Of a stretch of 37,038 nucleotides of DNA, positions 20,169 to 24,061 are shown piece by piece. The stretch lies in the NCBI GenBank assembly GCA_023667185.1, contig JAMPAP010000006.1:1-37038 (forward strand), written 5' to 3'. The stretch is from Lachnoclostridium sp. Its GTDB lineage: Bacteria > Bacteroidota > Bacteroidia > Bacteroidales > Muribaculaceae. The position numbers and the translations under genes were made by a program. How positions within the stretch are numbered: position 1 is the first letter of the stretch; each line of letters starts with the position of its first letter. The notes beneath the pieces are model-generated. The model was not told the origin of the DNA, did no database searches, and worked only from the letters and a program-made list of their open reading frames with translations.

Positions 20169-20615
20169 TCAAAGCCGGGAGTTAGTTATGCGCGATCGCT
20201 CTGTCTGCTCGAGCTGGCGTTCGGCCTGTCGTCGTTGCTGCCGTGTCAACCCGACGTTGGGGTTTATCGTAAATTTACAACCGTTTTTCACAAAGTCCAC
20301 ACCCTCTACAAGTGTCATGCCGAGGTTGGCCACATAAATCGTCTTTGGCCGATTGGTGATCTTCTGCTGCTTGCGCTGTGCAGCGCGTTGGCGAGCCTTG
20401 CTTGAACGTTCAATGGCCGTCAAGATCTCCGATGAAATGTATCGGAAGATGGATTGCACCATCTGATCCTCCTTTGATGTGTCTGGCATAACGCCATCGG
20501 TCATTAGGCTGTCGGCCAATGAGATGAGACGTTCGGCCATCTCGGCATTGAATGATGTGTTGATTTTCTCGATAATGCTTTTGCGGAACTTCCGCGATAC
20601 TGCTAACTGTTTCAT
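20169..20615 (-). CDS. Uncharacterised 148-residue basic protein
   Basis: I do not recognise this family. The protein is largely helical by appearance, with no signal peptide or membrane segment. The N-terminal half (MKQLAVSRKFRKSIIEKIN, then MAERLISLADSLMTDG and MVQSIFRYISSEILTAIERS) looks like a compact helical domain. A basic linker follows (SSKARQRAAQRKQQKITNRP), then a short beta-like stretch IYVANLGMTLVEGVDFVKNG and a charged helix LTRQQRRQAERQLEQTERSR. The two basic stretches suggest nucleic-acid or ribosome contact, which is speculation. ATG 20615 and ATG 20621 are both possible starts. It stands alone, 135 nt before tamB on the same strand, and starts 70 bp from the inverted-repeat element. 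Confidence 0.65.
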   Translation of the reverse strand: MKQLAVSRKFRKSIIEKINTSFNAEMAERLISLADSLMTDGVMPDTSKEDQMVQSIFRYISSEILTAIERSSKARQRAAQRKQQKITNRPKTIYVANLGMTLVEGVDFVKNGCKFTINPNVGLTRQQRRQAERQLEQTERSRITNSRL

Positions 20616-20634
20616 AATCATAATTATTTTTCAG

Positions 20635-20642
20635 CAAAAATA
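20635..20642 (-). promoter_or_regulatory. Possible -7 box for the uncharacterised gene
   Basis: On the minus strand TATTTTTG matches TAnnTTTG, 13-19 nt upstream of the two possible starts. No matching -33 box is seen. Confidence 0.4.
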
Positions 20643-20684
20643 CACGAAAGCATTACGCAGTAGTGACCATAATGGCAAAAAGTA

Positions 20685-20786
20685 GTTTTTAGTTTTTAGT
20701 TTTTAGTTTTTAGTTTTTAGTTTTTAGTTGTTAGTTTTTAGATTTTAGATTTTAGATTTTAGTTTTTAGTTGTTAGTCGTTAGTCG
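20685..20786. repeat. Left heptad tandem array
   Basis: Fourteen exact-length 7-bp units occupy 20685-20782, plus GTCG. In order they are six GTTTTTA, GTTGTTA, GTTTTTA, three GATTTTA, GTTTTTA, GTTGTTA and GTCGTTA. The unit changes only at positions 2-4. Confidence 0.92.
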
Positions 20787-21060
20787 AAAGAGGTCCGGAG
20801 GGCCGATGTTGTCAGTCATCGCCTTAGCGCTTTGCTTTAGCAAAGAAACCCCACGTTTACGTGGGGCCATGACTATCTCTCTGATACTGAGGCTCGGAGA
20901 GCCGATGTTGTAGTAACGGCTTTTTCGCTACCACAACATCGCCTCTCCGAGGCTCAAGTGGTTGATTATCAGCCTACCCCACATAAATGTGGGGTTTCTT
21001 TGCTAAAGCAAAGCGCTAAGGCGATGACTGACAATCTCGGCGCTCCGCGCCTCTTTCGAC
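20787..21060. repeat. Hairpin core of the inverted-repeat element
   Basis: It contains four copies of a 5-bp stem with a GGA loop (A1-A4; the right-hand two on the minus strand). It also holds two copies each of CGC-CTTA-GCG (B), CTTTGC-TTTA-GCAAAG (C) and CCCCAC(G/A)-TTTA-(C/T)GTGGGG (D), written outside-to-inside for each arm. Each A copy is followed by GATGTTGT or a near-identical variant (GAGATTGT in A4). Confidence 0.88.
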
Positions 21061-21165
21061 TAACAACTAACGACTAACAACTAACGACTAACAACTAACG
21101 ACTAACAACTAAAAACTAACAACTAACAACTAAAAACTAACAACTAAAAACTAACAACTAACAAC
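21061..21165. repeat. Right heptad tandem array (mirror of the left array)
   Basis: Fifteen 7-bp units are visible, all TAACAAC, TAACGAC or TAAAAAC. The first seven alternate TAACAAC and TAACGAC. These are the reverse complements of GTTGTTA, GTCGTTA and GTTTTTA found in the left array. Confidence 0.92.
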
Positions 21166-21203
21166 TGATATTAGTATAATTAATGTTTAATTAACGCGGG
21201 TGG

Positions 21204-21235
21204 TTTGGGGTTGACGCGAAAATTTCTTAACTTTG
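21204..21235 (+). promoter_or_regulatory. Consensus Bacteroidetes promoter for uvrA
   Basis: TTTG (21204-21207), 20 nt, then TAACTTTG (21228-21235) is an exact consensus match. The ATG at 21242 is only 6 nt after the -7 box, so the mRNA is predicted to be leaderless or nearly so. The promoter lies outside the inverted-repeat element, 38 bp to its right. Confidence 0.82.
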
Positions 21236-21241
21236 CAAGTT

Positions 21242-24061
21242 ATGAAGAAAACAAATACTCCTATGGTCAGCGATGACCACAACATAATAGTACGGGGAGC
21301 CCGTGTCAACAATCTGAAAAACGTGGATGTTACCATTCCGCGCGGGAAGTTTGTGGTGATAACGGGTGTATCCGGCTCGGGTAAGTCGTCACTTGCCTTT
21401 GATACTCTTTATGCCGAGGGGCAGCGCCGCTATGTGGAGAGCCTCTCGAGCTATGCCCGCCAGTTTATGGGCAAGATGCAGAAGCCTGAATGTGATGCCA
21501 TAATAGGTCTCCCGCCTGCTATAGCCATTGAGCAGAAGGTAAATACCCGCAATCCGCGAAGCACCGTAGGCACCTCCACCGAGATTTATGATTATCTGCG
21601 GTTACTGTTTGCGAGGGTAGGGCATACGTTTTCGCCTGTCAGCGGTGTGGAGGTGAAAAAGCATACTGTAAATGATGTTACAGATCTTGCGTCCTCGTTT
21701 CCCGAGGGCACACGCCTTGCCGTGACCGCCCCGGTGACACTCCCCGAGGGACGAAAGGTGCGCTCCCAGCTCGATGTGTATTTCAAGGCCGGATATTCCC
21801 GCCTTGTCAAGGATGGGGAATTTCTTGATATTGAGGAGATGCTTGCTGACGACAAGCTCGTCCCGCCGAGCCTTGACGGGTATCATCTGCTCATCGACCG
21901 TTTGGCCGTAAGCAGTGACCCTGATGAGGTGAGCCGTCTTGCAGACTCCGTGGAGTCAGCCTTTTTCGAAGGGAACGGCGATATGCGCCTCCTGATATAT
22001 AACGATGGTGAAGCCACGTCTTATGATTTCTCCAAAAGGTTTGAAGCTGACGGCATCAAGTTTGCCGAACCGAGCGACATGATGTTTAACTTTAACAATC
22101 CTGTAGGCGCCTGCGAAGAGTGTGGCGGTTTCGGCAAAGTGCTTGGTATCGACTCGCGGCTGGTGGTTCCTAATCCCTCATTATCAGTTTATGATGATGC
22201 AGTGGCTTGCTGGAAAGGAGACAAGATGAGTGAATGGAAACGCGACTTCATATCCCGCGCTTCGAAAAATAAATTCCCGATTCACACCCCTTACGTTGAC
22301 CTGACTGATCAGCAGAAAGACCTCCTCTGGCATGGCGACGGATCCCGAACATTCCCTTGTATTGACAACTTCTTCAAGATGGTGGAGGAGAACCAGTATA
22401 AGATCCAGTACCGCGTGATGTATGCCCGCTACCGCGGAAAAGCGGAGTGCCCCACCTGTCACGGCGCGCGATTGAAGAAGGCTGCCACCTATGTGAAGGT
22501 GGGCGGAAAGTCAATCGACGAGCTTGTGAAGATGCCGGTGGATTCCCTGCTCGAATTCTTTAATAACCTGGAGCTTAATCCTACGGATGCCGTCACGGCT
22601 GACCGCCTTCTCAAAGAGATCCGTAACCGCATTGGTTACCTCGTAGAGGTTGGCTTGAGCTATCTTACACTTGACCGTCTGTCGTCATCGCTTTCGGGCG
22701 GTGAAAGTCAGCGTATCAACCTTGCTACCTCGCTCGGCAGCAGCCTTGTAGGATCAATATATATCCTCGATGAACCCTCCATAGGACTTCACTCTCGTGA
22801 TACCGACAAGCTGATTACCGTGCTTCGCAAGCTGCGCGACGCCGGTAATACCGTGGTTGTAGTGGAGCACGATGAGGAGATAATGCGCGCTGCTGACTAT
22901 ATCATCGATGTAGGGCCTGATGCGGGCCGTCATGGAGGCGAAATCGTATTTGAAGGCACTCCCGCCGAGCTTGTGAAAAGCGATGGATATACCGCTAAAT
23001 ATCTGACCGGTAAGCTCACCGTCCCCGTGCCCAAGATACGTCGCAAATGGCGCGACAAAATTACCATCGAAGGTGCTCGCGAGCATAACCTAAAGGGAAT
23101 AGATGTCGACTTCCCGCTCGGAGTGATGACGGTGGTCAGCGGCGTCAGCGGTTCGGGTAAATCCACCCTCGTGCGCGACATCCTTTACCGCGCCCTGCTG
23201 CGTCACTTCGGCGAGGCTTCAGATGCTCCCGGCGCTTTCCGTAACCTCAGTGGCAGCCTGTCGCGGCTCTCGGCCGTGGAATTTGTGGATCAGAATCCGA
23301 TAGGCAAATCCACCCGCTCAAATCCCGCCACCTACCTGAAGGCTTTCGATGAGATACGTCGCCTCTATGCTGCCCAGCAAGCCGCGGTGCAGCTCGGCTT
23401 GACGGCCTCAGATTTCTCGTTTAATGCCGAGGGCGGACGCTGCGAGGAGTGTAAAGGCGAGGGATTTATCAAGATTGAGATGCAGTTTATGGCCGATATC
23501 ACCATCCCGTGCGAAAGCTGTGGTGGCAAGCGCTATACTCGTGACGTGCTTGATGTGAAATATCGAGGAAAAAATATATATGACGTCCTTGAAATGACCA
23601 TAAATCAGGCTATTGAATTCTTCTCGGAGGAACAAGGCTCGATAGAAAAGAAAATCGTCAAGCGCCTCAAACCGCTCCAGGATGTTGGCCTCGGATATAT
23701 AAAGGTAGGACAAAACTCTTCATCACTCTCAGGCGGTGAGAATCAGCGTGTAAAACTTGCGTCGTTTTTTGCCGACGAGAGCTCCGTGCCTACGATGTAT
23801 ATCTTCGACGAACCTACTACCGGATTGCATTTCAACGATATAGCACTGCTCCTGAAATCATTTGACCGCCTTGTGGAGGCTGGCCATACGGTAGTCATCA
23901 TCGAGCATAACCTTGACATCATCAAGCGAGCCGACCATGTGATCGACATGGGGCCTGAAGGTGGCGAAGGTGGCGGCCGGGTAGTGTGTACGGGCGTACC
24001 CGAGAAAATTGCCGAATGCCCTGATTCTTACACCGGAAAATATCTTAAAGAAAAATTATAA
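21242..24061 (+). CDS. uvrA: Excinuclease ABC subunit A
   Basis: Damage-sensing ATPase of nucleotide-excision repair, working with UvrB and UvrC. The 939-residue length is typical. Two ABC-type ATPase units are visible. The first has Walker A GVSGSGKSSLAFD, signature LSGGESQRINLA and Walker B YILDEPSIGLH. The second has Walker A GVSGSGKSTLV, signature LSGGENQRVKLA and IFDEPTTGLHFND. Zinc-binding Cys motifs occur in CEECGGFG with CPTCHGARL, and in CEECKGEG with CESCGGKRY. ATG 21242 is used; an upstream TTG 9 nt earlier is in frame but overlaps the -7 promoter box. It is the first gene of a long plus-strand block, 13 nt ahead of the Smr gene. Confidence 0.98.
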   Translation: MKKTNTPMVSDDHNIIVRGARVNNLKNVDVTIPRGKFVVITGVSGSGKSSLAFDTLYAEGQRRYVESLSSYARQFMGKMQKPECDAIIGLPPAIAIEQKVNTRNPRSTVGTSTEIYDYLRLLFARVGHTFSPVSGVEVKKHTVNDVTDLASSFPEGTRLAVTAPVTLPEGRKVRSQLDVYFKAGYSRLVKDGEFLDIEEMLADDKLVPPSLDGYHLLIDRLAVSSDPDEVSRLADSVESAFFEGNGDMRLLIYNDGEATSYDFSKRFEADGIKFAEPSDMMFNFNNPVGACEECGGFGKVLGIDSRLVVPNPSLSVYDDAVACWKGDKMSEWKRDFISRASKNKFPIHTPYVDLTDQQKDLLWHGDGSRTFPCIDNFFKMVEENQYKIQYRVMYARYRGKAECPTCHGARLKKAATYVKVGGKSIDELVKMPVDSLLEFFNNLELNPTDAVTADRLLKEIRNRIGYLVEVGLSYLTLDRLSSSLSGGESQRINLATSLGSSLVGSIYILDEPSIGLHSRDTDKLITVLRKLRDAGNTVVVVEHDEEIMRAADYIIDVGPDAGRHGGEIVFEGTPAELVKSDGYTAKYLTGKLTVPVPKIRRKWRDKITIEGAREHNLKGIDVDFPLGVMTVVSGVSGSGKSTLVRDILYRALLRHFGEASDAPGAFRNLSGSLSRLSAVEFVDQNPIGKSTRSNPATYLKAFDEIRRLYAAQQAAVQLGLTASDFSFNAEGGRCEECKGEGFIKIEMQFMADITIPCESCGGKRYTRDVLDVKYRGKNIYDVLEMTINQAIEFFSEEQGSIEKKIVKRLKPLQDVGLGYIKVGQNSSSLSGGENQRVKLASFFADESSVPTMYIFDEPTTGLHFNDIALLLKSFDRLVEAGHTVVIIEHNLDIIKRADHVIDMGPEGGEGGGRVVCTGVPEKIAECPDSYTGKYLKEKL

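Follow-up and report, generated by a model that had tools for sequence, protein, structure and literature searches.

The window, by which we mean the whole stretch of 37,038 nucleotides analysed (contig JAMPAP010000006.1), contains a gene-less nested inverted repeat of 481 bp that separates two divergently oriented genes, as an earlier note on this DNA had described. In full, the mirrored structure spans positions 20683-21166: its palindromic core, about 275 bp long, is bordered on the left by a TAGTTTT-type array and on the right by an array of the ACTAACA type. No ORF of at least 80 aa was found inside the element. The features of the locus are given below; the inverted-repeat arms and those hairpins for which no other basis is named were located from the sequence.

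20169..20621, minus strand: gene for a 150-aa protein with no Pfam or NCBIfam match
20664..20677, minus strand: conserved box TGCCATTATGGTCA upstream of the 150-aa gene, recurring upstream of its paralogues
20683..20784, plus strand: left heptamer array (TRF 20683-20777, 13.6 copies of TAGTTTT; units to 20784 by reading)
20785..21058, no strand: palindromic core, a gene-less copy of the Y1-associated element (own-genome matches, fold, Y1-bearing copy)
20792..20812, plus strand: outer REP-like hairpin A with foot GATGTTGT, left (sequence and stem covariation among copies)
20809..20854, plus strand: 46-bp perfect inverted repeat, left arm
20819..20845, plus strand: extra hairpin cluster TCGCCTTAGCGC, CTTTGCTTTAGCAAAG, left (in some copies only, among the matches listed)
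20849..20866, plus strand: CCCCAC...GTGGGG hairpin, left
20891..20911, plus strand: inner REP-like hairpin A' with foot, left
20912..20932, no strand: central loop region (position of the transposase gene in the Y1-bearing copy)
20933..20954, minus strand: inner REP-like hairpin A', right
20977..20994, minus strand: CCCCAC...GTGGGG hairpin, right
20989..21034, minus strand: 46-bp perfect inverted repeat, right arm
20998..21024, minus strand: extra hairpin cluster, right
21031..21052, minus strand: outer REP-like hairpin A, right
21059..21166, minus strand: right heptamer array (TRF, 15.4 copies of ACTAACA)
21242..24061, plus strand: uvrA (Pfam UvrA_inter and UvrA_DNA-bind)

The 46-bp inverted repeat reported earlier at 20809-20854 and 20989-21034 is exact at these coordinates and cannot be extended, and the wider arms (20652-20866 and 20977-21191) are 82% complementary. 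The inner hairpin clusters are indeed mirrored about the centre, with the modules located on both sides. The heptamer arms had also been described as mirrored; reading of the letters shows that this holds for their orientation but not unit by unit. The left array is made up of TAGTTTT, TAGATTT, TAGTTGT, and TAGTCGT units and the right array, on the plus strand, of ACTAACA, ACTAACG, and ACTAAAA units, both running towards the core. Folded as single-stranded DNA, the 278-nt core reached -119.1 kcal/mol, compared to a shuffle mean of -36.7 (z = -22.8), and none of 200 shuffles equaled it; the 481 nt reached -184.2 kcal/mol (z = -26.1), again with no equal among 100 shuffles. A fold of this stability would suit a structured RNA or an attenuator, but we consider that reading very unlikely. 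No Rfam family came near its threshold, the sole match being MIR4371 at 24.1 bits against a threshold of 110, and the mirror symmetry makes both strands fold alike. In addition, the likely promoters, as read from the letters, lie outside the element and point away from it, which is where the earlier note had placed them; uvrA is backed by its Pfam matches, and the boxes of the opposite gene recur in its paralogues.

The 150-aa protein family occupies 17 places in the genome, the window and 16 further ones, and the box TGCCATTATGGTCA is exact or near-exact in all 17 upstream regions. In 14 of them (by eye, with short arrays counted), a heptamer array ends 10-20 bp before the box, while the upstream regions L184, L187, and L194 have no heptamer array. 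Since arrays precede the box at most paralogues, the left array of the window is perhaps part of the upstream region of the 150-aa gene, to which it may belong as much as to the element.

A search of the host genome, which the earlier note had proposed, showed that the core is multi-copy and, in the sample, intergenic. The genome comprises 2.29 Mb on 43 contigs. Matches to the 278-bp core numbered 107; grouped by eye, they fall at about 40 places, and 37 stretches round such matches were retrieved. Among the matches listed, there were many half copies beside full mirrored copies. A 400-kb sample (C11:100,001-500,000) held 35 hairpin cores in 14 clusters. None of the 35 cores was inside any of the 313 genes called there (ORFs by a simple longest-ORF rule), although these genes take up 90% of the sample. 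When the sample was reversed, no hairpin cores were found. In their gene context (U 10, D 2, and C 2), the 14 clusters were similar to the full set of gaps of at least 40 bp (U 105, D 30, and C 24). The core gave no matches in phages and plasmids, and viral contigs gave none to a 25-base core pattern; together with the Rfam search, these searches gave no match to a named element.

The hairpin stems were surveyed from the foot in the window, the 400-kb sample, and a further 25 stretches of the genome. A perfect 5-bp stem was present in 94 of 198 foot-anchored candidates and in none of 42 in the reversed control. The perfect stems fall into four types, set apart from one another by compensating changes (37, 26, 25, and 6, numbers that are copies and not independent events, as the copies are related). 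Dispersed intergenic palindromes with covarying stems, a trait of REP/RAYT systems, are thus found in this genome. Hairpin A adjoins several different outer modules, and the true ends of the element are therefore not fixed.

The genome has two PF01797 (Y1_Tnp) genes, on contigs C11 and C23. The C11 gene (C11:345,181-345,609) is flanked on both sides by the inner hairpins of a full copy, which extends from outer hairpin to outer hairpin over about C11:345,081-345,761. The arms of this copy and its mirrored heptamer arrays are the same as in the window copy; its arms align over 251 nt with 89% complementarity, reaching into the heptamer arrays, and the gene forms the loop. In the window copy, about 20 nt occupy the place of the transposase gene. 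The fuller form of the element is an arm (hairpin A, foot, CCCC hairpin, spacer, A', and foot), a Y1 HUH gene, and the mirrored arm.

The C11 gene (L046:2080-2530, upstream sequence included) has an in-frame stop soon after an ATG that matches the MSKV-type start of the C23 gene, and its ORF as called starts at a later TTG. Because of this early stop, the C11 gene may be inactive and make no enzyme, judging from its reading frame. The C23 gene (L064; G000:C23:13205-13543) is open from its own ATG and is enclosed by a different inverted repeat (105 nt, 81%), also with A-type hairpins. If the C11 gene is without an enzyme, the C23 enzyme would need to act across families. Long tandem hairpin arrays were observed beside the C23 gene, near the contig end. 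The alignment of the C11 protein with the ISHp608 transposase 2a6m (E = 1.4e-7) takes in both the HUH and the Tyr motif. Both proteins scored above the cut-off of 55 for NCBIfam transpos_IS200 (C11 protein, 69.7 bits). With the RAYT model NF047646 (cut-off 80), the C11 protein scored 19.1 bits and the C23 protein gave no match at 1e-3. The PF01797 match, the HUH motif, the catalytic Tyr, and the transpos_IS200 score above the cut-off are those of class 1, the IS200/IS605 type.

The core is private to the species. Any match to it was found in 11 of 81 genomes, including its own, and the matches in the others were just 26-74 nt, the size of a hairpin. A homologous Y1 protein was present in 43 of the 81 genomes. 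We surveyed 31 Y1 loci, 29 from relatives (one per genome, of the 42 other positive genomes) and the two of the genome itself, by matching 400 bp before the Y1 match to about 460 bp after it at E < 1e-4. Of the 30 testable loci, 25 were inside an inverted repeat; the 31st was cut by a contig end. In the same test, none of 290 random places in the own genome was positive, and of 299 of its genes three were positive: the Y1 gene itself, the gene beside it, and a small ORF, of which the last two lie between heptamer arrays. No such inverted repeat was found round the Y1 gene at L109, L110, L117, L118, and L120, and at L107, L115, and L123 the arms were at unequal distances from it. The arm sequences differ between species. 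By eye, many of the loci listed have an arm plan of a small hairpin with a loop of few bases, a foot, a taller and mostly C-rich hairpin, a spacer, and then a second small hairpin beside the gene. A strict pattern of the foot and the start of the C-rich hairpin matched at 13 of the 31 Y1 loci, several of these plainly by chance, so the layout across species is a description by eye and not a consensus.

Gene-less copies were also found in sister species. The arm of the Y1 element of G018 gave 32 matches in G018 and 4 in G005; six of 12 gene-less places examined in G018 are mirrored pairs 33-56 nt apart, and G005 holds one further pair. Matches to the arm from G020 numbered 20 in G020, 8 in G017, and 2 in G008, whereas a further six genomes gave none; one of the G017 places is a gene-less mirrored pair. 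A search for the Y1 protein in genome contigs selected by organism name gave 21 pattern stretches, none of which was confirmed.

These data also bear on the possibility that the element is BIME-like and kept for a host function, such as gyrase or nucleoid binding, insulation of divergent promoters, or the formation of transcript ends, with Y1 as a domesticated maintenance enzyme, as has been proposed for RAYTs. We consider this unlikely, as the core is species-private, with any match in 11 of 81 genomes, and the gene context of the clusters resembles that of all gaps of at least 40 bp. A host function would nevertheless account for the intergenic placement, the covarying stems, and the position of the window copy upstream of both promoters. 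It is also favoured by three terminator-like sites in 20500-21300, of which two lie at the CCCC hairpins (the shuffle mean for the region being 0.8, sd 1.0), and by the perhaps broken Y1 gene of the full copy.

The flanks of the window copy were compared with those in sister genomes. In 26 sister genomes, the sequence taken round uvrA showed neither the 150-aa gene nor the start of tamB; in two of these, a paralogue is probably present in that sequence instead. Of the 24 sister genomes with both uvrA and tamB, 22 have the two genes on different contigs, where adjacency across contig ends is possible, while G007 and G025 carry them on a single contig at a great distance from each other. An empty site was sought at uvrA in the sister genomes and none was found, the upstream region being non-syntenic. 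As the join of the two flanks was not seen in the sister genomes, the element marks a junction without a counterpart there, the product of a genuine rearrangement at repeats or else of a misjoin. That the element itself is an assembly artefact, through misjoin or collapse at a repeat, is highly improbable. Several copies do lie at contig ends or beside N runs, and the sister-genome stretches round uvrA showed neither flanking sequence, with uvrA and tamB on different contigs or far apart, but tens of copies share the architecture and sister genomes have it too, so a misjoin could affect only the join of the two flanks at the window copy. With that join excepted, the single-copy assembly artefact that the earlier note had kept in view is ruled out.

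Half an arm is carried by a MITE-like element of 185 bp whose ends are of the ATGAGTATCC...GGATACTCA type. Direct repeats were found at three of its copies, which are those that fit the search pattern; others seen by eye did not fit it.

L058:1894-2078: 185-bp element with an exact 9-bp direct repeat
L060:1885-2069: 185-bp element with a 10-bp direct repeat, one mismatch
L055:1955-2139: 185-bp element with an 8-bp direct repeat, one mismatch

In L058, the 185-bp element is located between the promoter and the start codon of a 150-aa paralogue. An element with direct repeats that bears half an arm speaks for a reading of the family as a DDE-type MITE, a TIR transposon that carries REP hairpins as passengers. 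However, the window copy, as its letters were read, has no ends of this type, and a Y1 gene is inside the full copy and inside the inverted repeats of relatives. We regard a DDE-type origin as very unlikely.

The Y---Q--HH signature was present in all 31 Y1 proteins. In PMC6006769, this signature is the mark of TnpA_Y1 subclass 1.2, a group mostly of Cyanobacteria and Bacteroidetes that has 'no' under REP in the table and is generally without typical terminal IS200 structures; its table row gives the HUH site DH[IV]H and a WQ motif. The HUH site of the 31 proteins was DH[IV]H in 13, NH[VI]H in 15, DHLH in 2, and EHLH in 1. A pattern for the W motif found nothing in 15 of the 31 proteins and WQ in 6, and is a poor test. 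One signature, Y---Q--HH, together with the IS200-type score, suggests membership of subclass 1.2. The Bacteroidetes host and the two genes in the own genome are likewise similar to what is given for this subclass. In contrast to the subclass as tabulated, long mirrored hairpin arms and gene-less copies are present here, and the 25 of 30 testable loci within inverted repeats contradict the trait of no REP or terminal structure. We found no published account of such elements for subclass 1.2 among the listings of the open-access collection searched.

Several known systems share part of this organisation. REPINs and REP-RAYT systems (PMC3116915 and PMC3733652) are similar in that short intergenic palindromes occur in inverted pairs, dispersed and with covarying stems, and in that the gene for a Y1 HUH enzyme is bordered by the same palindromes. 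In contrast to the REP doublet, there are several hairpin kinds per arm here, and the C11 enzyme is far below the cut-off of the RAYT model. GTAG or GTGG within 8 nt 5' of the hairpin, a REP/RAYT trait, was found at none of the 94 hairpins; in 46 of them, GT[AG]G lies 3' of the hairpin at a distance of at most 13 nt. TIRtrons, or TIRYTs, resemble the present family in having a Y1 gene within long terminal inverted repeats and, in some genomes, dispersed TIR copies (PMC3733652). However, the 26 TIRYTs are placed in subclasses 2.1, 2.2, and 2.5 in PMC6006769, whereas the signature found in the present proteins is that of subclass 1.2. TIRYTs have the motif GGGGWSAS, which PMC3733652 gives as common to some TIRs only; it is not in the window core. 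It was near 5 of the 31 Y1 loci, compared to 58 of 300 random places in the own genome, and is thus not enriched. The enzyme is homologous to that of IS200/IS605 elements such as IS608, with the HUH and Tyr motifs aligned with 2a6m, and hairpins adjoin the gene in both. However, the hairpins of IS608 are short and subterminal (PMC6006769), while long symmetric multi-hairpin arms are on both sides here.

The heptamer arrays are a second repeat system, associated with the element but separable from it, in agreement with the earlier description of two unrelated kinds of repeat. In the own genome, four-unit TTAGNNN windows numbered 239 on one strand and 241 on the other, compared to 0 and 2 for the reversed pattern. 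The 400-kb sample held 27 arrays of at least 5 units in 18 clusters, none of them in called genes. Within gaps below 600 bp, six heptamer clusters were convergent pairs and none was divergent, and the arrays round the Y1 copy were convergent; one divergent array pair about 0.9 kb apart flanks the gene next to the Y1 copy (345,917-346,834). Seven of the 18 heptamer clusters were within 400 bp of a hairpin core, compared to 2.1 expected, and 1 of 2,000 intergenic shuffles was as high. The other 11 clusters had no core of the strict pattern within 400 bp, two of them (281,309 and 131,351) holding a degenerate hairpin, and cores without arrays were common. The view that the heptamers are a fixed part of the element is weakened by the 11 coreless clusters and by three pure heptamer mirrors. 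These mirrors, at C11:315027-315166, 445444-445667, and 479077-479272, have almost nothing between their arms.

Among the 81 genomes, a Y1 hit was found in 15 of 19 heptamer-rich genomes and in 28 of 62 others (Fisher one-sided p = 0.009), a value that applies to a cut-off of at least 5 windows picked after the counts had been seen, ignores relatedness, and takes in the reversed 'control' pattern as another kind of array. Near 4 of the 31 Y1 loci (L064 and L065, both own, and L098 and L100) there are clear arrays with a period of 7 or a multiple of it, and weak ones lie near L102 and L104. Other heptamer units (TTAGGAG, TTAGCAA, and TTAGCGT, and GATTNNN via the reversed control) were observed patchily in related genomes. 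Heptameric TAACTGA arrays (PMC4679880) are similar in being 7-nt arrays, mostly intergenic, with Bacteroidetes and Cyanobacteria among their hosts. They differ from the arrays here, in which the unit is TTAGNNN and variable and mirrored pairs lie round a centre.

These results make it probable that the window copy is a non-autonomous, REPIN- or MITE-like, gene-less member of a species-specific palindromic family that has been, or still is, mobilised by a Y1 enzyme. The arms are common to the Y1-bearing copy and dozens of gene-less copies, dispersal is intergenic, and the stems covary. The Y1 genes of relatives lie within inverted repeats, and sister species have gene-less mirrors. Of the options that the earlier note had offered, a REP/BIME-like mobile palindrome is the best fit, the copies being dispersed, intergenic in the sample, and provided with arms common to the Y1 copy; its mobility we infer, as we do the cutting point and the direction of descent, by loss or by gain of the gene. 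In such a mechanism, the arms would fold when the locus became single-stranded, as in the lagging-strand template or a transcription bubble. The Y1 enzyme would recognise the A hairpins with their feet and would cut and join single strands as IS200/IS605 enzymes do, and the element would thereby be copied or moved. Because the element is a palindrome, either strand could be used as the substrate. No transposition, excision, or empty site was seen in the material compared, which consisted of one genome per species and sister genomes without copies. The early stop in the C11 gene, the lack of an empty site, the 5 of 30 relatives' loci without an inverted repeat, the three loci with unevenly spaced arms, the half copies carried by the MITE-like element, and the unfixed ends all count against this reading.

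A wider and rather doubtful extension, which we offer tentatively, is that the Y1 enzymes of the REP-less subclass in Bacteroidales drive self-symmetric transposons in which the gene is in the loop of a multi-hairpin palindrome. The arms would follow a hairpin plan common to all, with a fast-diverging sequence particular to each species, and would multiply as gene-less mirrors, and the same enzyme would make or maintain the mirrored heptamer arrays at their edges. If this is true, either strand of such a transposon would be an equivalent single-stranded substrate. The family would be a candidate substrate for a group of HUH enzymes that has been tabulated without one. Many Bacteroidales genomes have a similar hairpin plan in which the sequence diverges freely, and they could serve as a test set for coevolution of Y1 enzymes and hairpins. 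The family may also be a candidate cause for some of the burden of intergenic repeats that these genomes bear, and for some of their contig breaks and rearrangements.

In genome contigs, the 25-base core pattern matched one record, a Muribaculum sp. MAG (JAMPGE010000022.1) with hairpin copies. No Y1 protein was noticed on inspection of the ORFs listed near this match. In the MAG (L195:1700-2400), repeated units of a similar hairpin and a C-rich hairpin were observed behind the end of an ORF that, named by eye, is secA-like.
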